Part shown: one piece after another, positions 8,778 to 32,683 of the stretch | Layout of the letters: every line of letters starts with the position of its first letter | Numbering within the stretch: position 1 is the first letter of the stretch | Assembly: GCF_001697225.1 (NCBI RefSeq) | Contig: NZ_CP014671.1 | Coordinates: forward strand, 2,852,001-2,916,000 | Reading direction: 5' to 3' | DNA: 64,000 nucleotides | Source of the DNA: Immundisolibacter cernigliae | GTDB taxonomy: Bacteria > Pseudomonadota > Gammaproteobacteria > Immundisolibacterales > Immundisolibacteraceae | The notes under the pieces: generated by a model | Told to the model about the DNA's origin: nothing | Databases searched by the model: none | Seen by the model: only the letters and a program-made list of their open reading frames with translations | Made by a program: the position numbers and the translations under genes

Positions 8778-8801
8778 GCCTGAACCCCGAGGAACTGCGC
8801 C

Positions 8802-9305: not shown

Positions 9306-9324
9306 GCGGGCGCGGAACCACGCC

Positions 9325-11433: not shown

Positions 11434-11434
11434 C

Positions 11435-14400: not shown

Positions 14401-14887
14401 GCAGGCACTCGATGCCCTGGTGGAGCGCATCACTGGCCTTGATCTGGACGTCTACACGCGCGAAGTGGACGCCCTGCACGGTGCGCTGGTGGACAAGCTG
14501 CGCGCTCTGGATCCGGCCGCGCTGGGCACGGTCCTGCGCGGCGCGGTGCAAGACCTGCTCGATGACATCACCCTGGGCGCCGTATTCACCCCGGCGTTGC
14601 GCGCGCAGCTGGACGCCGCGTGGGCGCAGCTTCGGGCCCGGCTTGCCGCGCTCGATCCGGGTCCGCTGGTGATCGAGCCGCTGCAAGCGGTTTACGAACG
14701 GGACCTGCTGCCGGTCGCGCAAGCCTTCGACGTGGGCGATGCCATGCAAGCGGTGCTCGACAAGCTGGGCGCCCTCCCTGACGAGCTGCGCACCGAGCTG
14801 AACCGTGTGGACGTGGCCTACCAGGCCATGCTGGCCGCCGCGCCCAGCAGCAGCCCGGCTGGCGAGTCCGCTGCGGTGGCTTTCTAG
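11435..14887 (+). CDS. large Ala/Leu-rich helical protein, tape-measure candidate
   Basis: 1150 residues, the largest protein of the block, predicted almost wholly helical with repeated AL/DALGALDA-type stretches and very few aromatic residues. A Pro/Ala-rich linker occupies about residues 140-168 (from nt 11855). Position after the chaperone and gpN-like genes, length and composition make it the best tape-measure candidate; such proteins fill the tail lumen and set its length. No clear transmembrane helix or protease motif was seen. If it acts as a straight ruler at about 0.15 nm per residue, the tail would be roughly 170 nm long. Role inferred. Confidence 0.6.
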   Translation: MATLLEQLGSLASGGSVSVDIAGAAGRFADIGATLRGVMTQPPGDFAALLGHLDALPLPKLELAADLTAGLGTLLPQLQGALAGGAQPLSGALSGLGANVQSGLADALGPLLAVVEAVRTLLATDLSCGLIPAFASPPVAAPVPTPAPGDPPAPPAAPVPAPAPVFSAAQVDTAKALLDTLPADMSAPALLGWLHHRIGVADGAGYFGVRAIPLLDDLRDPLDSLMRWDAATGAQLMDEFSATLSALASIVTANSAAQPAVSIPSDTVSELPGAPIGNAAQQLMDALGVLDAAVRADDAAAIAAALGTGQAAQAVLEAQNALFDAQQAAVAALRGAVLALPGRLETGICRLLVLLAPRAAVGGISAAFVPTVPASIGADAFQPVADLLTRVRQWLERLLGALDVGAVTAPLAAVFGQAQDAIQTVEQGIAQLTATARAAFGEADAALSAFDPAAIVAQARAAIEQAVQALADAIGAALGPAGAALTQAITAAGGALDAFDSEALAAPVQALLDELSALLQGPQVQALIDALAQLQALAQQLDALSFAPVADAVIGGIGEVKSALDAIDDAKLVAPMPEMISTAMSVLPPSLVPIINPLLGELDDLVAQSPGPLLDSLRELPQRIAGALAAYSPRALLDEPLGTPFTALTGELDGFSPTAWLDGAHDALDGALGRLAAALEPAPLLAPLTQAHGALTRELAALRPGQLLEPLAAQVEAALATLDGALPTQDLAQALAQVATQVQRLLEPFNQATDVIAAWTAKLALLADPDAQLSAWLDAILAKLPADAPVQLAGPLGALATAVENARAAALQSAWTRARAPLDAALAAADAPARLARLVQAKNALTAPRVAAVSDAAQRAALTAFLAGVDPLGPLGRGLAGLSRLSEAVTRSNTALTALFADWDARYLRLDGPLAGLAPAALTAEALRALLREAIDQQIGAPVVGFLKALKSISALISTFGDALGDLLEAIQSKLAALFAAPQALADAAQALDALVERITGLDLDVYTREVDALHGALVDKLRALDPAALGTVLRGAVQDLLDDITLGAVFTPALRAQLDAAWAQLRARLAALDPGPLVIEPLQAVYERDLLPVAQAFDVGDAMQAVLDKLGALPDELRTELNRVDVAYQAMLAAAPSSSPAGESAAVAF

Positions 14888-14897
14888 GAGCCGCCAA

Positions 14898-17558: not shown

Positions 17559-18625
17559 TGGACCTGCCCTTCCTGCCCGATGCCCCGGCCGCGCCGGGTT
17601 TCCGGCCGCGCTGCAAGGTGGGACCGCCGGCCCCGGCGGCGGGTGGCGGGGGGCTGCTCGACATGGCGCTCAGCCTGCTTTCGGCGCCCGCGCCGGACCC
17701 TTGGGCGGACCACCTGACAGACGTGGAAGTGCTGCTGGCGCCGGCCCCGGCGGTGAGCCACGCGCGCCTCACGCTCACCGACCGCGAAGGCGCGCCGGTG
17801 GTGGCGATCGGCGATTCGCTGCGCGTGGAACTGGGCGAGGAAGGCGCGCTCGGCGCGCTGCTCCAGGGCGAGGTACTGGCCATCGAGTCCCAGCCGGGCG
17901 AGCGGCGCGTGGTGGTGCTGGCGTCGGCCGCGATCAAGCTGGCGCGCCGGCGCGAGAACGCCGGCCATCAGGCGCGCACGCTGGCCGATCTGCTTAAAGG
18001 CTTTGCCGCGGCCGCGGGCCTGACCCCCGGCGCGCTCGAAACCGGCGCCAGCTATCCCTTCCTGGCGGTGGACGACCGGCGCAGCCTGTGGGAATGGTCG
18101 GCCGTGCTGGCCGCCCACAGTGGCCTGCTGGTGTGGGTGGACGGCGACGGCGCGCTGCGCTGCGCCAAGCCGGGCGGGCCGGCGGTGCAGACCGTCAGCC
18201 ACGGGCAGGATGTGCTGGCGCTCGAACACCGCGCCAGCGCACCGCCGCAGGGCCTGGTCACGCTGGTCGGCGAAGGCGCCGCCGGCAGCCAGGGCAGCGC
18301 GGCGTGGAGCTGGCTCGCCAAGGACCCGCAAGGCATCCAGGCGCAGGCCGGCAGTGGCGATCCGGCGCGCACCCACACCGACGGCACGCTGCGCTCCAGC
18401 GCGGCGGTCCGGGATGCCGCCGCCGCCCGGTCCGCCCAGGCCAGCGCGCGCGGTGCACGGGTGCGCCTGCACGTGCCCGGCGGTCCGGCGCTGATTCCCG
18501 GCGCCACGGTCACGGTCAAGGGCAGCCCCGGCGGCGCGGGCGATGGCGACTGGGTGATCGAAACCGCGCGCCACCGCTACGGCCGGGGTGGTTACGTGGC
18601 CCAGCTCGACGCGGTGGCGGCATGA
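17558..18625 (+). CDS. baseplate hub protein (gpD/gp27-like)
   Basis: 355-residue protein that starts at an ATG sharing its A with the previous TGA. It has the organisation of late-control gpD/hub proteins: an N-terminal beta domain with GDSLRVELGEEGALGALLQGEVLAIE, a helical segment (ARTLADLLKGFAAAAGL), a ERRVVVLASA strand, a DDRRSLWEWSAVLAAHSGLLVWVDGDGALRC segment split here for length, and a final barrel ending VIETARHRYGRGGYVAQL. The hub joins the tube to the spike as a trimer. Order hub-spike-PAAR supports the call. Confidence 0.8.
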   Translation: MDLPFLPDAPAAPGFRPRCKVGPPAPAAGGGGLLDMALSLLSAPAPDPWADHLTDVEVLLAPAPAVSHARLTLTDREGAPVVAIGDSLRVELGEEGALGALLQGEVLAIESQPGERRVVVLASAAIKLARRRENAGHQARTLADLLKGFAAAAGLTPGALETGASYPFLAVDDRRSLWEWSAVLAAHSGLLVWVDGDGALRCAKPGGPAVQTVSHGQDVLALEHRASAPPQGLVTLVGEGAAGSQGSAAWSWLAKDPQGIQAQAGSGDPARTHTDGTLRSSAAVRDAAAARSAQASARGARVRLHVPGGPALIPGATVTVKGSPGGAGDGDWVIETARHRYGRGGYVAQLDAVAA

Positions 18626-19236
18626 GCACGGCGCTGTACGACACGCTGCGCGCGCTGATCCGCGAGGAACTGGGCGCCCAGCGCAACTCCGAACTGGGCA
18701 CGGTGCAGGCGGTGGCGCCGGCCGACCCGGGCAACTACGCCGCCACCGTGGCGCTGCCGGGCAGCGATCTTGTGCTCGACGCGGTGCCGCTGCTCACCAC
18801 GCGCAAGGGCGTGGCGAGCGTGCCGGATGTCGGCGACCTGGTGCTGGTGAGCTTCGTCGGTGGCGACCTCAATCGCCCGGTGATCCTGGGCACGCTCTAC
18901 AACGACGAGGACCGCCCGCCGCCGAACGCCGCCGGGCAGTTCGTGATTCATCTGCCCGGTGGCGAAAGCGAAAGCAAGGCGCTGCGCCTGGAACTGCACG
19001 AGGCCGACCCCCAGCGCGCGGTGCTCAAGGTCGGCGATGCCTGCACGCTGACCGTGCAGGACGACGACCCGGTGGTGACGGTAGACGTGGGCGGCCAGGC
19101 AGCCATCGAGATCAGCCGGGCCGGCAATGTTTCGATTTCGGGCGGCGGCAACCTCACGCTCAAGGGCTCCGGCAACGTCACGCTGGAAGCCGGCGGCACC
19201 CTCGCGCTCAAGGGCGCCGTGATCAACCTCAACTAG
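18622..19236 (+). CDS. baseplate spike protein (gpV/gp5-like, VgrG-type)
   Basis: 204-residue protein with an N-terminal OB-fold (about 20-100: GTVQAVAPADPGNYAATVAL, VGDLVLVSFVGGDLNRPVIL, GTLYNDEDRPP) and a C-terminal beta-helix with Gly/Asn/Thr-rich turns (GNVSISGGGNLTLKGSGNVT). Such proteins trimerise into the needle under the tube. The gene overlaps the hub gene by 4 bp (ATGA) and is followed by the PAAR gene. The short helix and absence of an extension argue that it carries no fused effector. Confidence 0.88.
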   Translation: MSTALYDTLRALIREELGAQRNSELGTVQAVAPADPGNYAATVALPGSDLVLDAVPLLTTRKGVASVPDVGDLVLVSFVGGDLNRPVILGTLYNDEDRPPPNAAGQFVIHLPGGESESKALRLELHEADPQRAVLKVGDACTLTVQDDDPVVTVDVGGQAAIEISRAGNVSISGGGNLTLKGSGNVTLEAGGTLALKGAVINLN

Positions 19237-19245
19237 GCACCGGAT

Positions 19246-19638
19246 ATGGGCATGCCAGCGGCCAAACAGGGAGACCGGGTGATCGCCACCGACATCCACA
19301 TCCAGCAGGTGCCAAGCCCCGGCGGGCCGGTGCCCACGCCCCTGCCCAGTCCGTTTACCGGCATGCTCGACGGTGGCCTGTCCACGGACGTGAACATCGA
19401 GGGCAAGCCGGCGGCCGTGATGGGCTCCACCGCCACCAACACGCCCGCGCACGTGCCAACGGCCGGTCCGTTCCAGAAACCGCCGGCCAACAAGGCGACG
19501 ATCATCGCCGGGTCGGCCACGGTGATGGTGAACGGCAAGCCCCTGGCGCGCCACGGCGACGCCGCGCTCACCTGCAACGATCCGGCCGACCTGCCGGCCG
19601 GCACGGTGGTCGCGGTCGGCACGGTCATGGCGGGCTGA
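19246..19638 (+). CDS. PAAR-domain spike tip
   Basis: 130-residue PAAR-like protein that would cap and sharpen the spike. Features include MGMPAAKQGDRVIATD at the start, several Gly/Pro turns, NIEGKPAAVMGS and IIAGSATVMVNGKPLARHGD near the C-terminus, and a terminal cysteine and histidines that could bind metal. It has no effector extension. It lies 9 bp after the spike gene and 3 bp before the gp25 gene. Confidence 0.88.
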   Translation: MGMPAAKQGDRVIATDIHIQQVPSPGGPVPTPLPSPFTGMLDGGLSTDVNIEGKPAAVMGSTATNTPAHVPTAGPFQKPPANKATIIAGSATVMVNGKPLARHGDAALTCNDPADLPAGTVVAVGTVMAG

Positions 19639-19641
19639 GCC

Positions 19642-20115
19642 ATGCCGGTGCAGGAAAAACCCACCGCCCAGCTGCTGCGCGATCTCGCGCTGCACGCCAT
19701 CCACCGCGAGCTGCGCCCGGTGTACCGCCCCACCGAGAAGCTGGACGCCGGCCCCGGTGGACGCGGCCGGCAGTGGGATTTTGTGGTGCGCGAGGGTCTT
19801 GAGAACCTGGCGCAGGCCATCATCCTGCGCGTGCTCACCCCGCGCGGCGAACTGGCCGCCCTGGGCCATCCGGACTACGGCTCGCGCGTGCACGAACTGA
19901 TCGGCACCGGCAACACCGCCACCACGCGCGCGCTGCTGCGCTTGCACCTGCTCGATGCGCTGGGCCGCGAGCCGCGCATCGGCAAGATCCGCACGCTGGA
20001 CATCATCCGCACGCCGGGCCAGCGCTCCAGCGTGGACGTGCGCCTGGAGGTATTGCCCGCCGGGGCCGCGCAGGTGCTGGTCGTGGGCCCCTTCTCGCTC
20101 GATCTCGGCCCTTGA
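19642..20115 (+). CDS. gp25/gpW-like baseplate wedge protein
   Basis: 157-residue baseplate protein. The core GLENLAQAIILRVLTPRGELAALGHPDYGSRVHELIG matches the gp25/gpW fold, in which LTPRGE and the DYGS turn are characteristic (quoted here as short pieces). It helps attach the sheath to the baseplate in phages, pyocins and type VI systems. It carries an N-terminal extension of about 45 residues before the core. Confidence 0.88.
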   Translation: MPVQEKPTAQLLRDLALHAIHRELRPVYRPTEKLDAGPGGRGRQWDFVVREGLENLAQAIILRVLTPRGELAALGHPDYGSRVHELIGTGNTATTRALLRLHLLDALGREPRIGKIRTLDIIRTPGQRSSVDVRLEVLPAGAAQVLVVGPFSLDLGP

Positions 20116-20133
20116 GGCCATAAGGACACGGCC

Positions 20134-21879
20134 ATGAGCTTTCGCCGCAAAACCTACCCGGAAGTCTCCGAGCAATTGCTGACCACGCTGCTGGGCGGCG
20201 TGGCGGGCGAGGCGCATCCCTACCCGCCGCCCGGCGGGCGCGGCCCGGCGCGTTACGCGCTGCTGGCCGGCCCGGCGGCGGAAATCACCTCCGTGTATGG
20301 TCTCGCCGGTGGGGTTTCGCAGGCCTTTGCGCGCGGCGCGGACTACGCGCTGTCTGGCGACGGCGCGGCGCTGGAATGGAAAGACAGCGCCCGCCCGGAC
20401 CCCGGCTCGGTGTTCGAGGTGAACTACCTGCGCCGCGGCCAGAGCCCGCGCGTGAATGATCTGTACCCAGGTTCCGTAGTGCGCACGCTGCTGGAAGCCG
20501 TGGCGCTGGAAACCGCCGGCCTGTACGCGCAGATGCAGGCGGTGTACGACGCCGGCTTCATCGCCACGGCCACCGGCAGCGCGCTCGATCACGTGGTCGC
20601 GCTGCTGGGCATCGAGCGCATCGTCGCCGGGCGCAACAGCACCACGCTGGAGTTCCGCCGCCTGCCCACCACGCGCGGCGAAATCGCCATCGTGGCCGGC
20701 ACGCGCGTACTCACCGCCGATGGCGCCATCGAGTACGAAACCCTCGACGAACTGATCCTGGCCGACGGCCAGCCCTCCGGGCGGGTGGCGGCGCGCGATC
20801 TGGTGGCCGACAACGACGGCGTGCCGGCCGGTGCGCTGACGCTGCTGGCCAAACCCATCGCCGGCATCGAGGGCGTGAGCAATCCGGCGCCCAGTTCCCG
20901 CCTGGACCAGGACGAGACCGACGCCGAACTGCGGCTGCGCGCGCGCAGCTTTCTGGCCGGTGCCGAGCGCGGCACGCCCGGCGCCATCGTCGCCGCCATC
21001 GCCCGCCAGGGCCTGCGCGGCGAGGTCAGCGAGCCGGGCCCGGGCCGCATCGCGGTGCTGATTCACGACGCCGCCATCACGCCGCAGCAGCAGGCGCGCC
21101 TGGAGTTCGAGGTGGATCAGGCGCGCCCGGCCGGCGTGGCGGTGGAATGGAATTACGGTCCCGCGCCGGTGCCGGTGGACCTGGAACTGCGCCTGGTCAC
21201 GGCGCCGGGCCTGATCGAGGCGGACCTCAAGCGCATCCAGGCCGAGGTGCGCGGCCGCGTCGAGGACTACTTCGCGCGCCTGCCGCTGAAATCGTCCGGC
21301 AGCGTGGCCAAGCTCACCGGGCTGGCGCTGGGGGTGGCCGGTACGGAAGACCTGTCATTCGTCGCCGCCACGGCCGGCGGGGCCAACGTGCTGGACATGG
21401 CCGGCGGCAAGCTGAACCTCGAAGGCATGGTCACGCAGCTGGGCGCGCTCACGCTGGTGGACAACGCCCTGCCCACGCAGCTGCACCTCACCGTGCGTTA
21501 CCCCAACAACGCCGGCATTCCGGACCGGGCCACGATCCAGACCGCGCTGGAACAGGCCGCCGCCTACATCAACACGCTCACCACCGCCCAACCGCCGGCC
21601 GCCGAGCCGCTGCGCACGCTCACCTTCGGGCGCATGGCGCGCGCCTTGCCGCTGCCCGGCCTGCCCGCCGCCACGCTCGCGGAAGTGGACGCCGGCCCCG
21701 GACCCTTGCCAACGGCGGCGGACTACGCGCCCTACACGGTGCAATTCGCCTACACCCGCGCCAGCGGCCTGAGCCTGGTGCAGGACTCCGAAGCCGCCCC
21801 CACGCTCACGCTCGCTGCCGGTGAACGCCTGGCCGTGGCCAGCGTAAACGTGCTGGTCAAGCCCAAGGCCGGCCCATGA
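20134..21879 (+). CDS. gpJ-like baseplate assembly protein
   Basis: 581-residue protein of the baseplate J type. Typical features are the N-terminal helical part with RVNDLYPGSVVRTLLEAVA and ETAGLYAQMQ, the central beta domain with RNSTTLEFRRLP, GTRVLTADGAIEYET and GIEGVSNPAP, then DAELRLRARSFLAGAERGTP. It is longer than P2 gpJ (about 300) but in the range of T4 gp6 relatives. Together with gp25 and the gpI-like protein it would form the wedge ring. A GGA-type ribosome site precedes the ATG and the stop overlaps the next ATG. Confidence 0.85.
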   Translation: MSFRRKTYPEVSEQLLTTLLGGVAGEAHPYPPPGGRGPARYALLAGPAAEITSVYGLAGGVSQAFARGADYALSGDGAALEWKDSARPDPGSVFEVNYLRRGQSPRVNDLYPGSVVRTLLEAVALETAGLYAQMQAVYDAGFIATATGSALDHVVALLGIERIVAGRNSTTLEFRRLPTTRGEIAIVAGTRVLTADGAIEYETLDELILADGQPSGRVAARDLVADNDGVPAGALTLLAKPIAGIEGVSNPAPSSRLDQDETDAELRLRARSFLAGAERGTPGAIVAAIARQGLRGEVSEPGPGRIAVLIHDAAITPQQQARLEFEVDQARPAGVAVEWNYGPAPVPVDLELRLVTAPGLIEADLKRIQAEVRGRVEDYFARLPLKSSGSVAKLTGLALGVAGTEDLSFVAATAGGANVLDMAGGKLNLEGMVTQLGALTLVDNALPTQLHLTVRYPNNAGIPDRATIQTALEQAAAYINTLTTAQPPAAEPLRTLTFGRMARALPLPGLPAATLAEVDAGPGPLPTAADYAPYTVQFAYTRASGLSLVQDSEAAPTLTLAAGERLAVASVNVLVKPKAGP

Positions 21880-24317
21880 GCGGCGCCGAGCAACTCGCCG
21901 GCCGGCTGCCCTCGCTGTGGCGCCCGGAAGCGGGCGAGGACAGCCTGATCGCGCGTCTGGTGGCGGCGGTCGGCGCCCAGCTCGACGACGCCGGCGCGCA
22001 CGCCCAGCACGTGTTGCGCGCGCACTTTGCAGACAGCGCGGACGCGGCACTCACCGACACGCACTACCAGCGCGACCGCGCCGCGCGCGGCCTGCCGCCG
22101 GCCAACGTGCGCGCGCCCAAGGACCAGCGCGAACTGCTGACCTATCCCTACGTCACCGACCTGGCGCGTCTGGCCGCGCTGCTGGACCTGCCGCCGTGGA
22201 CCGAGCCGGCGAGCCTTGCCGAGACCGTGGAGGAATACCGCGAGCGCATCGCCGACGTGCTGGATGCCTACCGTCTGGGCCTGACCACGCGCGCCGCCAT
22301 CGCCGCGCTGGTGGAAGCCGCCTTGCCGGAAGACATGGCCGCGCCGGTCGCCGCGCGGCTGTGGCCGTTCCTGATCGAGGAACCGGCCGGCCTCGCGCGC
22401 CGGCGCGACACCATCGCCGTGCCGCAGGCCGGTGACCTGATTCCCCCGCTGTGGCGCTGGAACCCCAAGAACGCCAGCGGCGCGCCCACGGTGGTGCTGT
22501 CGGGCGTACCGGCGCAGGACGGCGCGAGCACCGCCACCACCGACCCGCTCATCGAACGCTACACGCCGGGCAGCACGCCGGTCGGGCTGGGTCTGGCGGT
22601 GCGCGGCACGCTGGCGCCGGGTACGTCGGTGCGTCTGACGCCGGTGTGGCGCAGCGCGCTGGTGCGGGACGGGCAATTGCAGCTCAGCGCCGCGCCGGAC
22701 GGCACTGCCGATGCGGCCGGCAACGGTCCGTGGGCCGCGCTGCCCGGTCTGCCCGCCGGTGCCGTGCGCGCGCTGGCCACCGCGCCAGACGGCACGCTGT
22801 GGGCGATGGTGGAAAACGCTGGCGCGTTTGCGCTGCTGCGCCACGACGGCAACACCGCGACCACAGTGGACACCGGCGCACCCGGCGGCGTCTGGCACGG
22901 CCTGGCGGTGTGCGGCGCGGCGGTGTATCTGGCCACCGACGCCGGGCTGCACCGCTGCCCGCTGTGGCCGGACGAAGGCGCCGGCTTTGCGCTGGCGCCG
23001 GTGCCGGCGGTGCCGGAAGCCGTGCAGGCCCTGTACGTGCTGCCGGACGGCACGCTCGGCTGTGCCGGGGCGGATGGCCTGGCGCTGCTCGACCCGGCCG
23101 ATGCCCTGGTCACCCGCCTGCTGCCGGGCGTGGGCCTGCACGCCGCCTTGCACCAGCGCGGGCGCTGGTATCTCGCCACCGCCGAGGCGCTGCTGCGGGT
23201 GTCGGGCACGCAGCTGTACCGCTACGCCAGCGAGGCCGTCAGCGAGGACCAGCCGGACTGGGAAGTGATCGAAACCGCTGCCGCCGCCACCGCGCAAAGC
23301 CCGCTGCCGGGTGTGCGCGCGCTGGCCGCCACGGCGGACGGCTGGCTGTGGCTGGGCACCACGGCGGGCCTTGCCCGCTGGGGCGTGGCCGGGGAGCGTT
23401 TCGACGCCGCCCAGCGGGCGGCGGACGGGCGTTCCACCCGTCTGCATGCGTATCCGGACCTTGGCACCGGCCCGGTGCAGGATCTTTCCGTGGACCATCG
23501 GGGCGTGCTGTTCGTGGCCGGCGCGAGCGGGCTTTTGCGCTGCACCGGGCGCGATCTGGCGCAGATGGATTTCAGCCAGAACCTTTGGCTGGCGCTCGGC
23601 CGGGCCGGCGCGGAGTACCCGGACGAGATCACCGAACGCCCGCGCGCGCATTACCGCTGGAACCGCGCCGACGCGCAGTGGGAACGCTTCGACGTACGTC
23701 GCGGCCGCTTTACGCGTGCCGCCGATGCGGTGCGCACCGCGGTGAGTAATGCCTGCGCCGCCTGGCTGGAACTGCCCGGCGTGTACGCCGAAACCGGCAC
23801 CGACGACGGCACCGCGTTCACCCCCACCGGCGCGCTGGCGGCGGCGGACCTGATCGTGCGCGTCAAGCCAGACGAGACGCGCATTGTCGAAGGCGGCCTG
23901 GCGTGCCTGCCGGCACACCGGCCCGGCGCGGCGTGGCGTTATCTGCAACTGGAACCCGCGCCGCTGACCGTGCCGGAAGGCCGGCCGTGGTGGAGCTGCG
24001 AGGGCCGGCTGTTTCCACCGCCCCAGCGCAGCGCGCCCTGGCCCGGGCACTTTCGCAACCTGGGCAGCCCGTTTCTCGGCGACGGCCGCTACGAGGCCGC
24101 CGTGTGGAGTTATCTGCCCTCGGCCCGCGTGGCGCTGGAATGGCCCGTCGCGCCGGCCATCGGCGTGCGCGTGCACCTGCTGCGCCGGCGGCCGGATGAG
24201 CTGATTGCCGATGCCCTGACCGCGCGGGTGTGGCAGCTGATCTCGCGCGCGCGCGCCGCCGGCGTGCCGCTGGCGCTGGCCGTCGACGGCCACACCGTGT
24301 TTGAGAGTTCACCGTGA
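21876..24317 (+). CDS. gpI-like baseplate protein with inserted beta-propeller
   Basis: 813-residue protein. Residues about 1-190 resemble phage tail protein I (LPSLWRPEAGEDSLIARL, then RERIADVLDAYRLGLTTRAAI). Between about 270 and 560 there are at least six propeller-like repeats of the form PDGTLWAMV, GAAVYLATDAGLHR, PDGTLGCAGADGLALL, GRWYLATAEALLRV, DGWLWLGTTAGLARW and RGVLFVAGASGLLR. The C-terminal 230 residues end LTARVWQLISRARAAGVPLA, again gpI-like. The propeller appears to be inserted into a wedge protein and might bind a fibre or a cell-surface ligand. The insertion call is inference from repeats. Confidence 0.7.
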   Translation: MSGAEQLAGRLPSLWRPEAGEDSLIARLVAAVGAQLDDAGAHAQHVLRAHFADSADAALTDTHYQRDRAARGLPPANVRAPKDQRELLTYPYVTDLARLAALLDLPPWTEPASLAETVEEYRERIADVLDAYRLGLTTRAAIAALVEAALPEDMAAPVAARLWPFLIEEPAGLARRRDTIAVPQAGDLIPPLWRWNPKNASGAPTVVLSGVPAQDGASTATTDPLIERYTPGSTPVGLGLAVRGTLAPGTSVRLTPVWRSALVRDGQLQLSAAPDGTADAAGNGPWAALPGLPAGAVRALATAPDGTLWAMVENAGAFALLRHDGNTATTVDTGAPGGVWHGLAVCGAAVYLATDAGLHRCPLWPDEGAGFALAPVPAVPEAVQALYVLPDGTLGCAGADGLALLDPADALVTRLLPGVGLHAALHQRGRWYLATAEALLRVSGTQLYRYASEAVSEDQPDWEVIETAAAATAQSPLPGVRALAATADGWLWLGTTAGLARWGVAGERFDAAQRAADGRSTRLHAYPDLGTGPVQDLSVDHRGVLFVAGASGLLRCTGRDLAQMDFSQNLWLALGRAGAEYPDEITERPRAHYRWNRADAQWERFDVRRGRFTRAADAVRTAVSNACAAWLELPGVYAETGTDDGTAFTPTGALAAADLIVRVKPDETRIVEGGLACLPAHRPGAAWRYLQLEPAPLTVPEGRPWWSCEGRLFPPPQRSAPWPGHFRNLGSPFLGDGRYEAAVWSYLPSARVALEWPVAPAIGVRVHLLRRRPDELIADALTARVWQLISRARAAGVPLALAVDGHTVFESSP

Positions 24318-24327
24318 GGATTCCGTC

Positions 24328-25806
24328 ATGAGTCTTGCCACCGCCATCACCGACATCGCCGCGCTGGCACCCAAGTCCGCCGGCCACCTGATCCGCCCGC
24401 AGGACTGGAACACGCTGATCGCGGCGCTGGGCGAGTTCGGCATCACGCTCACCGCGCACGATGCGGACGTCACCGACCTCAAGACCCGGGTGACGGCGCT
24501 GGAAGGCTCGCTGGCGGCGGTCAGCGCGCAGGTCACGGCGCTCGACAGCCGGCTCGATGCGCTCGAAACGCAGGTCACCCCGCTGCTCGGCCAGTACCTG
24601 GTGACGATGTCCTGCGAGCGGGCGAACTACGCCATGGGCGAGCAGTGCGAGCTGATCGCGCGCGTCACCAATCTCACCGGCCAGCCGCTGGCGGCGCCGT
24701 TTCCGTGGGTGGATTTCGTGGCCGCCTGGGGCCGGTTGCGCGCGCAGGCCGGTTTCGTCACCCGCGCCGGGGCGTCGGACAACTCGCTGTCCGTGCAGGT
24801 CAACGCGCAGGGCATCGCGCGGGTGCTGCTGCGCACCGAACACACCGAAGGTTTCAACGAAGACGAGGAACTTCAGGTCGGCGCCATGCTGGGCATGCAG
24901 GTGCCCGGCCAGAATTTCAGCGTCGGGCAGGCCTTCATGGTCGCCGCGACGCCCGACGACACCCGCGCGCGGGCGGCGTACGAAATCGTTTCCCAGCAAT
25001 ACCAGCGCGACGACGCGGTGGCGCTGCGCGCCTTTGCCGACACCTACCACGCGCGCAAGCCCGACTGGGCGGTGGAGCTGCGCCCGGGGCTGGGCGGGCG
25101 CTGGCAGGACCATCGCGCGACGGTGCTGGCCTTTGCCAAGCCGGACGCGGACCCCACCAGCGCCGATGGCGCGCGCGGCAGCGCCAGCATCCAGGTGAAC
25201 TTCCGCGACTGGCTGGGTCCGTGGGGGCTCGATTTCGTGACGCCCCGGCCGGACCGGGTCGGGCCGTGGATCGAGCGCATCCCGCCGCTGTTCGAACAGG
25301 CCGACCCGCTGCGTGGCTTCGAGGACCTGTTCCAGCGCGAATACGGCCGCACCGGCCTGCTCGGCAAAAAGCAACTGCTGGCCGGTGTGGAAGAAGCCAT
25401 GGAGCGCATCAACCCCGGCACCGACCCACTGCGCCAGGGCTACAAGATGCAGCTGCTGGCCGGCATCCAGGCCCAGGGGGCGGCCGAACTGTATGGCGCG
25501 GGCAGCAACGTGCCCAAGGCCATGGGCGCGCAGTTAAAGCAGGGCCAGCAGACCGGCCGGGTGGCCCAGCAGGTCACCGGCGTGGCCGCGCAGGTGACCC
25601 AGACGCGGGGGCTGGTCGAGTCGGTGAACGTGCTCGAAGGGCGCATGCAGGCGGCCGAGCGGGTGGGCCAGAACATCCAGTCCGGCCTGACGCGCATCGA
25701 CGACAACGTGCGCGCCATCAACCCGCTGTCCGAAGACAGCCTGCGCGGCAACATGGAGCGCATCGGCGCGGAGATCGCGTCCATCCGCGCCCGCGTGGGC
25801 GGCTAG
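24328..25806 (+). CDS. coiled-coil/Ig-like tail accessory protein, unknown
   Basis: 492 residues from ATG 24328, preceded by GAGGA; an upstream GTG at 24313 is less likely. Residues about 45-95 form a heptad coiled coil (VTALEGSLAAVSAQVTALDS). It is followed by an Ig-like sandwich (YAMGEQCELIARVTNLTG, QGIARVLLRTE) and a mixed region with NFRDWLGPWGLDF. The C-terminal 120 residues are helical, again with heptads. No family recognised. Position after the gpI-like gene suggests a fibre or baseplate accessory. Confidence 0.55.
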   Translation: MSLATAITDIAALAPKSAGHLIRPQDWNTLIAALGEFGITLTAHDADVTDLKTRVTALEGSLAAVSAQVTALDSRLDALETQVTPLLGQYLVTMSCERANYAMGEQCELIARVTNLTGQPLAAPFPWVDFVAAWGRLRAQAGFVTRAGASDNSLSVQVNAQGIARVLLRTEHTEGFNEDEELQVGAMLGMQVPGQNFSVGQAFMVAATPDDTRARAAYEIVSQQYQRDDAVALRAFADTYHARKPDWAVELRPGLGGRWQDHRATVLAFAKPDADPTSADGARGSASIQVNFRDWLGPWGLDFVTPRPDRVGPWIERIPPLFEQADPLRGFEDLFQREYGRTGLLGKKQLLAGVEEAMERINPGTDPLRQGYKMQLLAGIQAQGAAELYGAGSNVPKAMGAQLKQGQQTGRVAQQVTGVAAQVTQTRGLVESVNVLEGRMQAAERVGQNIQSGLTRIDDNVRAINPLSEDSLRGNMERIGAEIASIRARVGG

Positions 25807-25816
25807 GGCTCGGGCC

Positions 25817-27817
25817 GTGGCCACGGTGTACCTGGAGCCACAGGATCTGACCCCCGCGCAGGCGGCGCGGGTGCTCACGTTGCTCAACACCGCCGGTTCA
25901 GCGCAGGCACTGGCCGCGGCCATCGAGATTCCCGGCGAACTCGACATCGGCACGCGCCTGGCGCAGCGCCTGCTGGATGCGCGCGCGGCGCTGGGCGGGC
26001 GCTTTACCGAGCTGCGTCAGGTGCGCGCGGTGCGCCTGATCGGCCCGGAGCGGTTCACCGAAATCTGCGCCGCCGCGCTGGGGCTGGACCCGCGTCGCTG
26101 GATCACGCAGATCGGCACCTTCACCGACCGTCAGGCGGAACTCGAAGCCCAGCTCGCGCGCCTGGCCGCACTGGCCGATGGCACGCAGGCGCAGCGCGAG
26201 GGCGCGCGCCTGGATCTGACGGCTAAGCCGCAGCCGCTGTGGCTGGGACAGGCGCTGGATGTCCGCCTGGTGTGCACCGACTCAGGCGGCCAGCCGCTGC
26301 CCGGCCGGCGCGTGACGGTGAGCACCAGCACCGGCACGCTGGAGGTCGCCTTCGGCTACGCGGTGACGCGCGCGGCGGGCGTGACCGTGCGCACCGGCGC
26401 GGACGGCAGCGCCAATCTCACGCTGCGCCTGACCCCGCCGGACGGACTCACCGCCGAGCAGCAGGCGCTGCTGGAAGGCGCGCTGGGCACGCTGGACCCG
26501 CAGGCGGAAAGCGCCGCGGACCTTGGTCCGGCGCTCGCCGCGCTGGCGGAGGTCTACACCCGCGAGCGCGCGGGCACGCTGCGCGCGGCGCTCGATCTTT
26601 ACGCCCGCCAGTACCGCGCGGTGTTCGTAGACCGCCTGAACTTCGGCGGTGCCGGGGTGGCCTTTGCGCTCGAAACCAGCGTGCTGCGCGCCGATCTGCA
26701 CGGCGCCGACGGCGCTGCCCATGCTGGCGGCGCCGGCAGCCTGGCGCACGCGGTGTTGGTGGCGCACCACCGCAACTGGGTAGGCGCGTGGCTGGACGCG
26801 CTGGGCGAGTACGTGGCCGGGCGCGCGGCGCTGGATGCGGCATTCAGTGGCGCCACGCGGCGCGGCACCACCGGGCAGCGTCTGGTGAACGACCTGGTGG
26901 CCGAAGCGCAGGTCTACATCGCCGGCCTGCCGGGTATTGCCGCGCAGTGGGCGGCGCAGCGGCGCGTGAACACCGCCATGCAGCGCTATCTGGCGCGCGA
27001 CACCGCCAACCTGGACCTGCCCACCCGCCAGGGTCTTTTCGCGCAGCTCACCGATGCCGCCCAGCAGATCACGCCAGAAAGCCGCGGCACGCTGGCCGCC
27101 GTGGCGCAGGCCAAGGCGGAACTGGGCACGCGCATCGAACAGGTCGGCGGCATCAGCGGCGCGCTGGCCGACGAAATGCGCGGCCTGCGCACTGAAGTGG
27201 TGGCCCGCGCCCAGGACGTGTCGCGCACCGCCGCCACGGTCGCCCAGCAGGCGGCGCAAGTGCAGACCGACCGCGCCGCGGTCAGCGCCGACCGCCAGCG
27301 GGTGGAAACGCGCACCACCGAGTTCGACACGCGCTTTGCCACCTTCAACACCCGGTACGACGACTTCAACACCCGCTACCAGGGCTTTACCGTCGATTTC
27401 GGCAGCTTCCAGACCGACTACGGCCAATTCCGCACCGACGCCGCGGCCATCGACACGCGCATCGCCGGCGCCGAAACCGACATCAACCGCCTGGAAACGC
27501 AAACCGCCACGCTCGGCCAGCGCGTGACCACGCTCGACACGCAGACAGCGACCCTCAACCAGCGCGTGGCGACCCTGGACACGCGCACCACCACGCTGAC
27601 CCAGCAGGTTGGGGTGCTCGACACGCGCACCACCACCCTGACTCAGCAAGTGGGGACGCTGGACACGCGCACCAACACCCTGACTCAGCAAGTGGGGGCG
27701 CTGGACACGCGCACCACCACGCTGAACCAGCAGGTCACGACGCTCAATACGCAGAACAGCGCGCTGACGCGCGACGTCACCACGCTGCGCACCGACGTGG
27801 GCCGCATCTCCCGGTGA
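25817..27817 (+). CDS. probable tail fibre with Ig-like domain and 14-residue coiled-coil repeats
   Basis: 666 residues from a GTG at 25817. Residues about 140-205 look like a Big_1-type Ig domain (QALDVRLVCTDSGGQPLPGR, GADGSANLTLRL). A long helical middle follows. The C-terminus (from about residue 557) is eight tandem units of the type LDTRTTTLTQQVGT, with hydrophobic a/d positions alternating with Thr, encoded by 42-bp DNA repeats at 27485-27817. Such repeats suit a trimeric fibre stalk. The gene overlaps the next by 4 bp. Fibre role is inferred. Confidence 0.6.
   Translation: MATVYLEPQDLTPAQAARVLTLLNTAGSAQALAAAIEIPGELDIGTRLAQRLLDARAALGGRFTELRQVRAVRLIGPERFTEICAAALGLDPRRWITQIGTFTDRQAELEAQLARLAALADGTQAQREGARLDLTAKPQPLWLGQALDVRLVCTDSGGQPLPGRRVTVSTSTGTLEVAFGYAVTRAAGVTVRTGADGSANLTLRLTPPDGLTAEQQALLEGALGTLDPQAESAADLGPALAALAEVYTRERAGTLRAALDLYARQYRAVFVDRLNFGGAGVAFALETSVLRADLHGADGAAHAGGAGSLAHAVLVAHHRNWVGAWLDALGEYVAGRAALDAAFSGATRRGTTGQRLVNDLVAEAQVYIAGLPGIAAQWAAQRRVNTAMQRYLARDTANLDLPTRQGLFAQLTDAAQQITPESRGTLAAVAQAKAELGTRIEQVGGISGALADEMRGLRTEVVARAQDVSRTAATVAQQAAQVQTDRAAVSADRQRVETRTTEFDTRFATFNTRYDDFNTRYQGFTVDFGSFQTDYGQFRTDAAAIDTRIAGAETDINRLETQTATLGQRVTTLDTQTATLNQRVATLDTRTTTLTQQVGVLDTRTTTLTQQVGTLDTRTNTLTQQVGALDTRTTTLNQQVTTLNTQNSALTRDVTTLRTDVGRISR
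27485..27817 (+). repeat. tandem 42-bp coding repeats in fibre gene
   Basis: Eight consecutive 42-bp units begin at 27485, 27527, 27569, 27611, 27653, 27695, 27737 and 27779 (the last truncated by the stop codon). The units at 27611, 27653 and 27695 differ at only a few bases. Each encodes a 14-residue block of the form xxLDTRTTTLTQQV. Such repeats can change copy number by slippage and so alter fibre length. Confidence 0.85.
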
Positions 27818-29502
27818 GCGTGCTCTTCCACACCCCGGCCGGCGGCGCCGCCCAGCGTGTGCAGGCCGGGCAGGTGCTCGACCTCACCGCGCCGGTGCTC
27901 ACCGACGGCGTGACCGTGTTCCGGCGCACGCTGTACCTGCGCATTGCGCTGGATGGCGCCTGCGACCGCGTGACGCTGGACAGCGCCGCGCTGGCGCTGC
28001 GTTTTGAGCCCTGCACGGTGGCGGTGGCGCGCGGCGATGCCGACTGGGTGCGCCGCTGGCAGGGCAGCTTCGGCACGGTGGATGTGGAGCTGGCCTACCC
28101 GGCGCCGGTCACGCGCGTGGAAAGCACGCTGTACGGCAAGTTCGAGCTGTACCGGATGGACGGCGCGGCCGTCAGCACCGACCCCACCGCCACCGGCAAC
28201 ACCGGCGCCGTGCTGCCGGAACCGTTCAGCGCCACGGCGTTTGAGGTGCGCCTGTGCAGCGAGAAACCCGGCCTGCGCATGGCCGAAAAGCACAAGGTCA
28301 TCGCGCAGAAACATGCCGCCCACCGGACACTTTCCGCCGCCGCCGTGGGCGTGCAGATGCTGAATGAATCGGAACTTGCCATGCAGGACGCCGACCGCAT
28401 CGTCGAACTGGTCAACGGCCTGTCCGCGCTGCATCTGGCCGGCATGCCCGGCTCGCCGCGCCTGACGCTGCGCAGCGCGGACGGCAGCGAAACGCTGTGG
28501 CAGTGGATCGAGCCCGGCCCACAGCAAAGCGCGCTGGATTTCGCCCCCGCCACCCTCGCGCAGGACTTGCAGCCGGCCCTGGAACGCGCGCTGAAACTGG
28601 CGGACGAAGCAGCCCACGCAGCCGGCACACCGCGCCCCGCCGTGCTGGTGCTGCCGCTGGAATTGGCCAGCGACAGCCCGTGCCGGGTGCGCGTGCAGCA
28701 GGCCAACGTCACCGCACTGCTCGAACGCCCGCTGCTCGCCCAGCCCGCCAGCCTGCGTTTTGACGGCGCCGCCCGGGAAATCCTGGCCCTGGCGCTGACC
28801 GCACCGCCGGGCGCGCGCCGCCTGGCCGTGCAAGGCCAGTACGCAACCGATTCGGACGCCGCACCCGGCACGGACGCGCCTGCACCGGCCGCCACCGGCG
28901 TGTATCTGCCGGAAGGCGCCAGCGCCAGCGCGACGCTGACCCTGCCCGCCCCGCTGCGCTGCGGCGGCGTGGCGATTGGCTGGCATGCGCTCGGCGAGCA
29001 CACCACGCTCGACATCAGCCTGCACGCCCCGGCCGACGCACCCCGCCCGCTGGCCCAGGCCAGCATCGAAACCGACCGCACCACACCCGGCACGCTCCAC
29101 GCCCGCTGGCCGGCCGCAGACCTGCAAAGCGGCACCTGCCGCGTGCGCGTCACCGTGCGGCAGGGGGGCGGGGTGTGGGCCGGCGCGCCTGGCACGTCGG
29201 GCCTAAGGCTCGGCGACGGCAGCCAGGACGCGGGGCAGGATGTCGCGGTGGTGCCAGACCTGACCCTGCTGGCCCCCGGCAACCCCAACGACCCGCCGCC
29301 GGTGACACTGCGCCTGGGCGACAGCCTGCTCATACCCAATCCCGACGCCGCCCAGGCGCCACGTCCCGGCGTGCTGGACCTAAAGGTCGACCCAGTTGCC
29401 CCGGCGCTGGCCGCACAAGCGGACTGGTCGCTGACCGTGCAGGCTACCCAGCCGCTGACGCTGACCGTCGAGAGCGTGCGCGTTGCCTATACGCCGAACT
29501 GA
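27814..29502 (+). CDS. last protein of tail-like block, beta-rich, unknown
   Basis: 562 residues from a GTG that overlaps the previous stop by 4 bp. It is predicted beta-rich with a short helical zone (ADRIVELVNGLSALHLAG). Strands such as RRTLYLRIALDGACDRVTL, FGTVDVELAYPAPVTRVEST and SLTVQATQPLTLTVESVRV suggest two or three sandwich domains, and Pro/Ala-rich linkers separate them. No family recognised. Being last and beta-rich, it may be a receptor-binding or fibre-tip protein. The gene ends 6 bp before the convergent dioxygenase gene. Confidence 0.55.
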   Translation: MSVLFHTPAGGAAQRVQAGQVLDLTAPVLTDGVTVFRRTLYLRIALDGACDRVTLDSAALALRFEPCTVAVARGDADWVRRWQGSFGTVDVELAYPAPVTRVESTLYGKFELYRMDGAAVSTDPTATGNTGAVLPEPFSATAFEVRLCSEKPGLRMAEKHKVIAQKHAAHRTLSAAAVGVQMLNESELAMQDADRIVELVNGLSALHLAGMPGSPRLTLRSADGSETLWQWIEPGPQQSALDFAPATLAQDLQPALERALKLADEAAHAAGTPRPAVLVLPLELASDSPCRVRVQQANVTALLERPLLAQPASLRFDGAAREILALALTAPPGARRLAVQGQYATDSDAAPGTDAPAPAATGVYLPEGASASATLTLPAPLRCGGVAIGWHALGEHTTLDISLHAPADAPRPLAQASIETDRTTPGTLHARWPAADLQSGTCRVRVTVRQGGGVWAGAPGTSGLRLGDGSQDAGQDVAVVPDLTLLAPGNPNDPPPVTLRLGDSLLIPNPDAAQAPRPGVLDLKVDPVAPALAAQADWSLTVQATQPLTLTVESVRVAYTPN

Positions 29503-29508
29503 TGGGGG

Positions 29509-30468
29509 TCAGCCCAGCGAGGGCTCCAGAAACGCCGGATGCAGATCCCGGTCGTACCAGGACAGGGCCTTGCCGAGCTCGGCCTCGTCCCAGACCACCG
29601 GCTGGAACTGGCTATGCACTTCGGTGACGCGGCCGCCGGCGCACAGCTCCAGGCGCACGCCGAACGGATCGCGGCAGTGCAGGGAAAAGGTCTTGCCGTA
29701 GGACTGGCGGGTCGGGCCGTAGCGGTCGATGTCCACGCCGGCTTCGCGCAGGTAGATGCCGGCCAGCAGGATGTCGTTGGGGTCTTCCTTGGTGAAGGCG
29801 ATGTGGTGCAGCCGGCCGGCCGGGCCCGGGAAGACGGCCAGTTCCTGGCCGCCGACTTCCTTCGACATCCGAAACAGCAGCGCGGACAGGAGCTTGCCGT
29901 CGGCGCTATCGATGCGTTCGGATACCACGAAGCCGAGCACCTCGCGCAAAAACGACACCGCCGCCTGCGGGTCGGGCGCCGTGAAGCCGACGTGGTTCAG
30001 GAAAAACGGCGCCGGCGTGCCGCGCAGCGGTCGTGGCGTGACCCAGTCCGGCGAGTCGTAGCCGGTGACGTAGCCCGGCTGCGCCATGTCGGCATACAGG
30101 CGCAACCGCGGTCCGCTGGGGATGGCAAAGGCGATGCTGGTGCCCAGGCTCTCCAGCTCGGCACCGGCCGCACAGCGCTGCACGGCGACGCCTGCCTGCT
30201 CGACCAGGCCGGCCAGCCGCGTGAGATCAGCATCGTCCCGGACCTGAAAGCCGATCTCGACCAGCCGGTTGTCGGCGCTTTCCTCCAGCACCAGCGAGTA
30301 GGCGAACGGCTCGTGCCAGCAGCGCAGGTACAGCCGTCCCGGTCCGCGGCGCGATTCGAGCAGGCCGAACTGCTCGCAATAGAACTCGCGGGCGCGCAGC
30401 AGACGCGGGTCGGCCAGGGCCAGGCGCACGTAGCCGAGACGGTGGATGCCTTGATGTTTCAGGGCCAT
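29509..30468 (-). CDS. type I extradiol ring-cleavage dioxygenase
   Basis: Fe(II) enzyme expected to cleave a dihydroxylated aromatic ring next to the hydroxyls (meta cleavage). The 319-residue protein has two VOC modules. Likely iron ligands are His159 (FLNHVGF), His221 or 222 (LHHIAF) and Glu274 (VRLEL). It lies 10 bp downstream of a second extradiol gene on the same strand. Having two such genes suggests different ring sizes or successive rings; the substrate is unknown. Its 3' end is 6 bp from the last tail-block gene. Confidence 0.88.
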   Translation of the reverse strand: MALKHQGIHRLGYVRLALADPRLLRAREFYCEQFGLLESRRGPGRLYLRCWHEPFAYSLVLEESADNRLVEIGFQVRDDADLTRLAGLVEQAGVAVQRCAAGAELESLGTSIAFAIPSGPRLRLYADMAQPGYVTGYDSPDWVTPRPLRGTPAPFFLNHVGFTAPDPQAAVSFLREVLGFVVSERIDSADGKLLSALLFRMSKEVGGQELAVFPGPAGRLHHIAFTKEDPNDILLAGIYLREAGVDIDRYGPTRQSYGKTFSLHCRDPFGVRLELCAGGRVTEVHSQFQPVVWDEAELGKALSWYDRDLHPAFLEPSLG

Positions 30469-30478
30469 GGCGCGCGCC

Positions 30479-31405
30479 TCAGGTCACTTCCGCGAAAAAG
30501 CTTTCCGGCACCACGCTTTCGTAATAGAAGGCGCCGCGCGGGAATTCCTGTGCCTGCCAGACGATGGGCGGGATCAGGCCCGGCACGCCGCCGGCCTGGT
30601 AGGCGCCGTTGTAGACCTCGTTGCGGTTGCCGGCCGGGTCGAAAAAGTAAATGGTGGTCACGCCGGACACGCCATGCCGGGTGGGGCCGTATTCCATCAG
30701 CGTGGTACCGGCCTCCTTCATGATGTCCACGGCGCCGATGACGTCGCTGCGGCTCTCCAGGCCAAAGGCGATGTGGTGCAGGTGGCCGTTCGGGCCGGGC
30801 GCGATGGCCAGGTCGTGCATGGTGTGGCCGCAGGTGGTAAACGCCGCGATCACGCTGCCGTCCGGGGCCACCACCTGCTCGGACAGGTTGAAATCGAGCA
30901 CCTCGATCAGGAACTGCGCCGTGTCGGCCGGCCGCTCGCCGGCCAGCAGCAGGTGATCCAGGTGCGTCACCCGCGCGCCCGGCTTGCCGTGCGGCGGCAC
31001 CGGGTTCGGGTTGCGCATGCCGGTGGCGTAACCGATCTTGTCCAGGTGATGCAGCAGGCGCATTTCCTGGCCCGAGGGCAACGTGAAGGCGATTGCCGCG
31101 CCGGCTCCCAGCGCGTCACCGGCCGGCACACCGCGCACCGCAATGCCGCGCGCCCGCACGGCCGCCTGCGCCTCGGCGAGGTCTTCCACCTCGCCCACCT
31201 TGAAGGCTACGTGATCGATGCCGGCGTGCAGCGCCTCGGTCAGGATCAGGCAGTGGTGGTCCTGGTTGTCGGCCGCCTGCAGGTAAACACGGCCATGCGC
31301 ATCGCGGCCGGTCTCGCGCAGGCCGACCACCTCGACGTAATGGCGCCGGGCGGCGTCCAGGTTTGTCACGTAAAGGCTGATATAGCCGATGCGGCTGACC
31401 GCCAT
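30479..31405 (-). CDS. catechol 2,3-dioxygenase-like extradiol dioxygenase
   Basis: 308 residues, the same length class as XylE/DmpB (307). It converts catechols to 2-hydroxymuconic semialdehydes. Ligand positions fit type I extradiol enzymes: His148 or His151 (RVTHLDHLLL), His210 or 211 (HLHHIAF) and Glu263 in the XylE-like DPAGNRNEVY. The ATG at 31405 follows AGGAGA and begins MAVSRIGYISLYV; the longer frame adds no homology. It is the upstream partner of the extradiol gene ending at 29509. Substrate could be catechol or a PAH-derived diol. Confidence 0.9.
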   Translation of the reverse strand: MAVSRIGYISLYVTNLDAARRHYVEVVGLRETGRDAHGRVYLQAADNQDHHCLILTEALHAGIDHVAFKVGEVEDLAEAQAAVRARGIAVRGVPAGDALGAGAAIAFTLPSGQEMRLLHHLDKIGYATGMRNPNPVPPHGKPGARVTHLDHLLLAGERPADTAQFLIEVLDFNLSEQVVAPDGSVIAAFTTCGHTMHDLAIAPGPNGHLHHIAFGLESRSDVIGAVDIMKEAGTTLMEYGPTRHGVSGVTTIYFFDPAGNRNEVYNGAYQAGGVPGLIPPIVWQAQEFPRGAFYYESVVPESFFAEVT

Positions 31406-31681
31406 GGGGATTCTCCTGCCGGGCTGAGTTTTTGTCGGTGACCCGCCCTGTGGGCAGTCGTGACGAAGCACGGCAGGCATAGTGCAGGGGCAGCGCGGCG
31501 CAGGCTTGCCGCGGGTCAAGATCGCGCTATGTGGCCGGCTGGCACGGTCCGCGGGGGAGAATGGCGCAAGTGCGCTGGCGGATGGCCAATTGCCGATTCG
31601 CCAGGGCGTGGGACTGAAACGCCGACCGGATTCCAGCCATGCGCCCTGCGGATGAACCGAAGCCGGCCCAGAAACGACGAA

Positions 31682-31708
31682 GGCGCCGGGGCATGAGGCC
31701 CCGGCGCC
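31682..31708 (-). terminator. GC-rich hairpin after the hydratase-aldolase gene
   Basis: A perfect 11-bp stem, GGCGCCGGGGC (31682-31692) and GCCCCGGCGCC (31698-31708), with a 5-nt loop. It begins 10 bp past the stop codon of the minus-strand gene at 31718. The minus-strand flank (TCGTCGTTTCT) is only moderately T-rich, so it is a likely but imperfect intrinsic terminator. The 31406-31717 intergenic region otherwise holds only the upstream leader of the extradiol genes. Confidence 0.6.
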
Positions 31709-31717
31709 GTGCGGACT

Positions 31718-32683
31718 TCAGACCAGACCCAGATCCTTGATGCGTCCGACCAGCCGCTCCCGATCGGCTGGCGGCAGGTGCTGCACCGGCGGCTTCATCG
31801 GGCCGGCCTTCAGGCCCAGCGTCTCGCACCAGATCTTGATCACCGACATCAGCGACGCGTACGACGCGGTGCGGATCAGCGGGTTCATGAACTCGTCCTC
31901 GTACAGATGCCAGATCGGGCGCAGGCTCTTCCACTCCGCATAAGCGCCCTCCCAGTCGCCGGCGCGCGCCTTGTCCACGTAGGAGCGCAGCACCGAGCGC
32001 TTGCGGCCGTAGATCAAATACGAGAACTCGGCGAACAGCACCTGGCCGCCCTCGCGCAGGTCGTCGAGGTAGAAGTGCTCGGTCGGGTCAGACACGATGA
32101 AGTCGTCGCGCAGTTCGCGCCGCAGCAGCAGCGATTCGGCGCGGTTCAGGTTGCCCTGTTTGGTGCAGACCACGGTGTCGATGTCGACCAGGCGCTTGAG
32201 CAGTTCGAGGCCCATTACCTTGCCCGATACCGGCGTGCGGTACAGGCAGATGCCCAGATCGCTGCGGTCGGTGACGTACTTGAAGAAGTTGTAGATCTCG
32301 TCGTCGCCGCGCAGCTGGGTCATCGGGTTCATCAGCTCGGCGCCCGAGAAGCCGAGCTTCTCGACGTGCCTGAGCTTGTCCACGCAGACCTCGGCGCAGG
32401 GGTCAAGGATGATGGTCCACAGGTCCGTGCGGCCCTTGACCGCGTCGGCGGTGATCTCGTGCAGGCGATACCACCACTCCGGGCGCATGTTCCAGGTTTC
32501 GTTGGCAAAGCCGCCGACGACCAGGCCGTTGACGCCCCAGTCGATATAGGCCTCGATGTTCTCGCGGATGCCGGCTTCGTCGAGTTCGAAATCCTTGGTC
32601 AGGGGGGTGATGGGCGCGGCGTAGAAATCGCGCACGCGGGCCTTGGCCCAGGGTTTGGCTTCGCTACGGGTAAATTCGGGCAT
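31718..32683 (-). CDS. DapA-family hydratase-aldolase
   Basis: 321-residue class I aldolase of the dihydrodipicolinate synthase superfamily. The Schiff-base lysine is Lys175 (VVCTKQGN) and the catalytic tyrosine Tyr148 (CLYRTPVSG). Start is MPEFTRSEAKPWAKARVRDFY, with homology from about residue 20. In PAH pathways such enzymes convert hydroxybenzylidenepyruvates to aldehydes and pyruvate. Being next to two extradiol dioxygenases makes a lower meta-pathway hydratase-aldolase likely. Start ATG at 32683 is preceded by AGAGGAGAC. Confidence 0.82.
   Translation of the reverse strand: MPEFTRSEAKPWAKARVRDFYAAPITPLTKDFELDEAGIRENIEAYIDWGVNGLVVGGFANETWNMRPEWWYRLHEITADAVKGRTDLWTIILDPCAEVCVDKLRHVEKLGFSGAELMNPMTQLRGDDEIYNFFKYVTDRSDLGICLYRTPVSGKVMGLELLKRLVDIDTVVCTKQGNLNRAESLLLRRELRDDFIVSDPTEHFYLDDLREGGQVLFAEFSYLIYGRKRSVLRSYVDKARAGDWEGAYAEWKSLRPIWHLYEDEFMNPLIRTASYASLMSVIKIWCETLGLKAGPMKPPVQHLPPADRERLVGRIKDLGLV

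Follow-up and report, generated by a model that had tools for sequence, protein, structure and literature searches.

Paired extradiol dioxygenase-type genes in Immundisolibacter cernigliae, one with a predicted noncanonical second sphere

Type I extradiol dioxygenases such as XylE and NahH, members of the VOC superfamily, combine a two-domain fold with a 2-His-1-carboxylate iron triad and a second sphere of His, His, and Tyr. On plasmid NAH7, a 2Fe-2S ferredoxin gene lies just upstream of the NahH gene, and genes for HMSD, a hydrolase, and a hydratase follow it. Here, a pair of extradiol-type genes (A and B) and an upstream aldolase gene are described in strain TR3.2, which we take to be the strain later named Immundisolibacter cernigliae; the genes lie in a 64,000-nucleotide stretch (the window, bases 2,852,001 to 2,916,000) of a genome assembled as one contig of 3,243,537 bp. 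TR3.2 ("Pyrene Group 2") originates from soil contaminated with polycyclic aromatic hydrocarbons (PAHs) (PMC5054325), and an excerpt of a paper on hydrocarbon genes gives 21 xylX variants for I. cernigliae (PMC9535955). Genes A and B share the length, two-domain VOC fold, and iron triad of XylE and NahH, and A has their full second sphere as well, whereas B has Gln, Gln, and His in place of His, His, and Tyr.

Two-subunit extradiol enzymes with adjoining extradiol-type genes, one of which has the standard active site, occur in type II (LigB), a different superfamily; aminophenol 1,6-dioxygenase is an example. In the A-B pair, B retains its iron ligands. Homoprotocatechuate 2,3-dioxygenase (HPCD) has a fold like that predicted for B (Z about 27, from a weak model), and at one position B is the natural counterpart of the engineered HPCD variant H200Q; whereas the H200Q and Y257F variants of HPCD are engineered, B represents a natural clade that is changed at three positions and is usually paired with an intact homologue. 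4-Hydroxyphenylpyruvate dioxygenase (HPPD), also a VOC dioxygenase, has a Gln shortly before its QH iron-His motif (3 of 3 HPPD loci), somewhat like B, but the Gln-to-iron-His spacing is 15 compared with 14 in B, and the likeness is a lead only, with no closer kinship to B seen. Judged by titles and opening lines of abstracts, none of the papers listed in searches of an open-licence library deals with a mixed-subunit type I extradiol enzyme or with a natural clade lacking His/His/Tyr.

Active sites of genes A and B

The aldolase, A, and B genes are all on the minus strand, in that order (Table 1), and the initial annotation placed them correctly, with profile scores far above chance (TIGR03211, PF00701, and 1mpy). 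Gene A is taken to start at position 31405, a conserved ATG; the mechanically called open reading frame begins at a TTG at 31519. Gene A matches the catechol 2,3-dioxygenase (C23O) equivalog model TIGR03211 at E 3.3e-89 and 299.1 bits, and because the curated cut-off of 320.2 is not reached it is of the extradiol type but not assignable to that equivalog. Its closest PDB relatives are catechol 2,3-dioxygenases, and in all 13 A rows the iron triad (H153, H214, and E265 of XylE) is intact and the second sphere (His199, His246, and Tyr255 of XylE) is canonical. Gene A is thus a predicted type I extradiol dioxygenase with the full set of catalytic residues, in agreement with its first description as a C23O-like gene of XylE length.

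Gene B aligns along its length with XylE (1mpy, E 4e-36) and matches TIGR03211 at E 7e-55 and 186.4 bits, below the same curated cut-off. It was examined in an alignment of 15 B rows numbered by NahH of plasmid NAH7, in which one row (L045) is cut short by a contig end and lacks the last three positions, two entries on one contig (L017 and L065) are counted once, and a fragment of 50 residues at G005:C10, which may be the missing end of the truncated B in that genome, is omitted. The iron ligands are invariant (H153 in 15/15, H214 in 15/15, and E265 in 14/14), whereas the second sphere is systematically replaced, with H199 changed to Gln in 14/15, H246 to Gln in 14/14, and Y255 to His in 14/14. 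In the window protein, the ligands are H159, H222, and E274, and Q208, Q255, and H264 occupy the positions of XylE H199, H246, and Y255.

The replaced motifs align between A and B without gaps, although three extra residues are inserted in B shortly before Q208; as the window B has no His between H159 and H221, no shift of the alignment can restore His199. His, His, and Tyr are present at these positions in NahH, in two further C23Os, and in NahC, a distant extradiol enzyme that serves as an outer control. An excerpt describing a solved BphC structure puts His-189, His-237, and Tyr-246 in the catalytic pocket (PMC6880040), and by the numbering used here these residues correspond to the positions replaced in B. 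In printed alignments judged by eye, 9wgj apparently has no His at the H199 position, and loss of this His by itself may therefore not be unique to B. Gene B is predicted to keep its iron site within a remodeled second sphere, and this is the unusual feature of the locus. It was absent from the initial annotation, which listed B simply as a second extradiol gene: the fold and iron triad agree with that label, and the acid/base residues do not.

Distribution and neighbors of the A-B pair

Of the 15 places where gene B is found, 14 are in eight genomes of the order Immundisolibacterales, the window's own genome contributing two, and the last is on a plasmid of Rhodococcus ruber. At 13 of the 15, B is immediately preceded by A in the same orientation, with gaps of 10 to 79 nt in the 11 pairs measured and 10 nt in the window, and an intact A is also present in each of the eight B-carrying genomes and on the plasmid. 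B-type matches with at least 57% identity occur only in those eight genomes (G000 to G007) among the 56 relatives searched. At E 1e-55, 4 of 369 gammaproteobacterial genomes have B, the four all belonging to Immundisolibacterales, as does 1 of 398 genomes of a phylum sample, namely the window's own; these samples are partial, and B may extend beyond them. There are 276 plasmid records matching B, and among the 40 listed the R. ruber plasmid has 52.8% identity and the other 39 have at most 33.8%; B was not found in viral contigs.

The A and B distance matrices of 12 pairs are correlated (r 0.949, a value reached in 0 of 10,000 permutations). For the same pairs, the mean protein distance is 0.35 for B versus 0.41 for A, with B smaller in 49 of 66 comparisons, and invariant columns number 84/319 in B (14 rows) and 68/308 in A (13 rows). 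The B reading frame is full length in 14 of 15 copies, the remaining one running into a contig end, and the B clade is monophyletic with support of 99/98 and a long stem, for which the tree program warns of long branches. On this comparative sequence evidence, the pair has been inherited and duplicated together, and it probably forms a conserved two-gene extradiol module within Immundisolibacterales.

A [2Fe-2S] (Fer2) ferredoxin gene is located just upstream of A in 9 of the 13 pairs, as upstream of NahH in NAH7, and 8 of these 9 stand behind a gene of a 2-oxoacid:ferredoxin oxidoreductase (IorB-like) cluster, for which Pfam or NCBIfam was run on the own-genome members only. XylT, whose gene is placed like this ferredoxin gene, re-reduces the iron of XylE. 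The second pair in the window's own genome (L062 8290-15014; 11,289-18,013) follows IorA-like, IorB-like (POR plus DUF6537), and [2Fe-2S] ferredoxin genes; this arrangement recurs in related genomes. On the R. ruber plasmid, the order is likewise ferredoxin-A-B (L058 13699-15957), and this pair, which may reflect transfer between phyla, is near genes for mycofactocin-coupled SDR proteins, amidohydrolases, and dihydroxy-acid dehydratases.

Three pairs, all in this genus, have an aldolase gene upstream of A instead of the ferredoxin gene. The pair at G007:C66 has three Rieske alpha cluster genes and an OmpW gene upstream; its B (L074 8150-9106) combines His at the H199 position with Gln246 and His255, perhaps an intermediate state. 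The two B genes without an adjoining A, at G003:C222 and G006:C5, both have Rieske alpha cluster genes next to them, and at G006:C5 alpha and beta subunits are identified by Pfam. Unlike NAH7, none of the A-B neighbors scanned codes for HMSD, the hydrolase, or the hydratase.

Roles of gene B and the aldolase

The explanation favored overall, with a probability of about 0.6, is that A and B constitute a module in which B would be an active, remodeled extradiol-fold metalloenzyme working with A. Gene A would cleave a catecholic intermediate of PAH breakdown in the standard meta fashion. B would be a second active metalloenzyme, with iron or manganese in the shared fold and a rebuilt second sphere, and would take another substrate or catalyze another step; the likeliest candidates are a related diol and the 2-oxo acid that A produces. 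The ferredoxin, where encoded, probably re-reduces oxidized iron in A and perhaps in B. It is likely that the module is real and that B is functional but noncanonical, and the two solo B genes beside Rieske oxygenase genes are counted in favor of this explanation. That B takes a separate substrate or step rather than serving as a partner subunit falls somewhat short of even odds. More tentatively, the pair may be a two-protein system of the type I extradiol kind that occurs in nature. B would then be either a partner subunit or an enzyme that no longer relies on acid-base chemistry by His/His/Tyr and instead converts a diol or the ring-cleavage product along a new route at the same iron site.

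Several observations weigh against the favored explanation. The correlation of A and B distances partly reflects a common species history, and within the genus B evolves faster than A, with dN/dS values between the window and two sibling genomes of 0.229 and 0.217 for B and 0.045 and 0.117 for A (the aldolase has 0.072 and 0.113). One B, that of G007:C66 (L055), keeps a His at the H199 position. The AlphaFold model of B, built from an alignment of 4 rows, is weak (pLDDT 67 and pTM 0.73 for the best of five, the rest having pLDDT 54.5 to 35.0), and its confidence is low at residues 202-206 and 255-259, around the replaced residues. For HPCD lacking His200, an excerpt describes the rate as vanishingly small (PMC10760822), and B could accordingly be inactive as a dioxygenase.

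Could the pair instead be a mixed-subunit extradiol dioxygenase, in which A cleaves the ring and B is regulatory, substrate-shaping, or iron-protecting? Such an enzyme would fit the close spacing of the two genes at the 13 of 15 places where they are paired, as well as the matched evolution of A and B, and it has a parallel in type II aminophenol 1,6-dioxygenase, whose active site is in the beta subunits according to an excerpt on AromaDeg (PMC4250580), but it is rather unlikely: the iron ligands of B, kept in every copy that covers them, would be needless in a purely structural subunit, and two B genes have no adjoining A. Those same two genes, located beside Rieske oxygenase genes, would suit a B that cleaves a bulkier PAH diol as an ordinary extradiol dioxygenase does, its changes being neutral or compensated, for example by His264 doing the acid/base work. 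The model of B, weak as it is, can be superposed on C23O and HPCD structures along almost its entire length (Z 31 to 27), and engineered H200Q and Y257F HPCD have been crystallized with bound substrate (PDB titles). An ordinary B is nonetheless doubtful given that three second-sphere residues are altered jointly against their conservation in 13 A proteins, NahH, NahC, and two further C23Os, and that HPCD nearly loses its rate without His200 in the excerpt cited above (PMC10760822). Highly improbable is a B that is a decaying, functionless duplicate; its faster change than A within the genus points that way, but its dN/dS is about 0.22, its frames are full length in 14 of 15 copies, its ligands are invariant with like replacements across the order and on the Rhodococcus plasmid, and it shows greater conservation than A over 12 pairs.

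A further alternative concerns all three genes, which the initial annotation took as a compact set typical of PAH degradation containing a hydratase-aldolase, and which would then be a classical ring-cleavage set of two dioxygenases and a NahE-like enzyme. The window aldolase does belong to the DapA family as claimed (PF00701, E 2.3e-22), sharing with NahE and PhdJ the DHDPS family and the Schiff-base Lys and Tyr (Lys175 and Tyr148), and the host degrades PAHs; relatives with 47.8 to 49.4% identity are present in 7 Sphingomonadales plasmid records, two of which are pNL1, where the gene is near ring-hydroxylating dioxygenase genes. The hydratase-aldolase assignment itself did not hold up. The window aldolase is only 20.7% identical to NahE, and it reads GFANE where NahE has GTFGE and the genome's own DapA has GTTGE, the GT(F/T)GE motif being that which binds the pyruvate carboxylate. 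NahE finds PhdJ at E 4.5e-92 (phmmer), and the NahE/PhdJ chains 6dao, 9frt, and 6dan are absent among the 60 of 67 matches listed for the window aldolase at E 0.001. Three closer NahE homologues, with 55, 49, and 44% identity to NahE, are encoded elsewhere in the genome, and on these identities the aldolase was rejected as a NahE orthologue.

The aldolase orthologues of three sister-genus genomes are among genes of the acyl-CoA dehydrogenase or enoyl-CoA hydratase clusters, and the stretches fetched downstream of them contain no A-B, which also argues against a classical set; a fourth genome has a contig end inside the gene. The aldolase is present at only 3 of 13 A-B pairs, and on this count a conserved aldolase-A-B trio was rejected. 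A classical set is unlikely, and the aldolase is a predicted pyruvate-type lyase of a clade other than NahE/PhdJ. The clade, which has a GGFxxExWNM-like motif that also sets it apart from NahE/PhdJ, is expanded in this genome, where the family has 9 members at E 1e-65 or better (window gene included), and is shared by Sphingomonadales PAH plasmids.

Locus layout and an intervening island

The compactness first attributed to the locus applies to A and B and not to the aldolase, which ends 312 nt upstream of the conserved ATG of A, behind a GC hairpin. The hairpin has no clear T tract, its 61-nt stretch folds with z -2.14 (7 of 200 shuffles equal or better), and it is conserved in one sibling (G001) and missing from the other (G002). 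A pattern-based terminator scan did not list it, and a pattern scan detected no sigma-70-like promoter in 29400-32900. The hairpin is possibly an end or attenuation point of the aldolase transcript, and given the gap and hairpin the aldolase may be transcribed apart from A-B. The semialdehyde dehydrogenase and isomerase genes said to be missing here were indeed not seen among the part of the neighboring genes that was scanned. Elsewhere in the genome, a 4-hydroxy-2-oxovalerate aldolase gene of the lower meta pathway is present at 2,040,865, and there are 8 matches to PF01323, which may be NahD-type isomerases or ordinary DsbA proteins, both being members of that family.

Table 1. Coordinates of features in the window
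Feature	Position	Strand	Basis
DHDPS (DapA)-fold lyase, predicted non-NahE clade, 321 aa	31718..32683	-	PF00701 E 2.3e-22; motif tables
Gene A, predicted type I (XylE-like) extradiol dioxygenase, 308 aa	30479..31405	-	TIGR03211; catalytic residues
Gene B, extradiol-fold protein, 319 aa	29509..30468	-	TIGR03211; alignment of 15 B rows
11-bp GC hairpin close behind aldolase stop	31682..31708	-	Folding versus shuffles
Rieske oxygenase alpha subunit	4143..5405	-	tblastn, 93% identity to L064 gene
Calcineurin-like phosphoesterase	5534..6358	-	Adjoins B 3' end in two siblings
Contractile-tail-like island, about 23.1 kb	6361..29508	.	blastn versus two sibling genomes; Phage_sheath, Baseplate_J

In both sibling genomes, B is followed by the phosphoesterase gene and then by a Rieske oxygenase gene, so that a single 0.8-kb gene separates B from the Rieske gene (the gap between B and the phosphoesterase gene is about 140 nt in G001), whereas in the window B and the Rieske gene are about 24 kb apart. 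The nearest NCBIfam model for the Rieske alpha subunit is AndAc, below its cut-off (Pfam and NCBIfam run on the L064 copy). Homology of the window to the siblings stops at 6360 and resumes at 29509, and a gene set that looks isolated thus has a Rieske neighbor that is now distant. The intervening island contains phage-sheath, baseplate J, and long coiled-coil genes and is absent at this place in the two siblings; it was presumably inserted in TR3.2 rather than lost in the siblings, and two compared stretches at its ends share no word of 9 or more bases. A link of the locus to PAH degradation is supported by gene A, by the PAH-degrader genome, and by the Rieske gene near B in the siblings, but it does not extend to the three genes as a conserved unit. 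Another stretch resembling a Rieske oxygenase alpha subunit is present on the minus strand of the window at 49409-50443 (tblastn from fetched Rieske proteins).

The acid/base His is called critical for the extradiol rate in an excerpt of one report (PMC10760822) and has been studied by means of engineered H200 variants (PDB titles). The B clade offers a natural replacement of this His (14 of 15 copies) and of two neighboring residues with the iron site kept, and with it a direct test of iron-site chemistry without the standard second sphere. For PAH degraders more broadly, ring-cleavage capacity may be overestimated where such genes are annotated as "catechol 2,3-dioxygenase."

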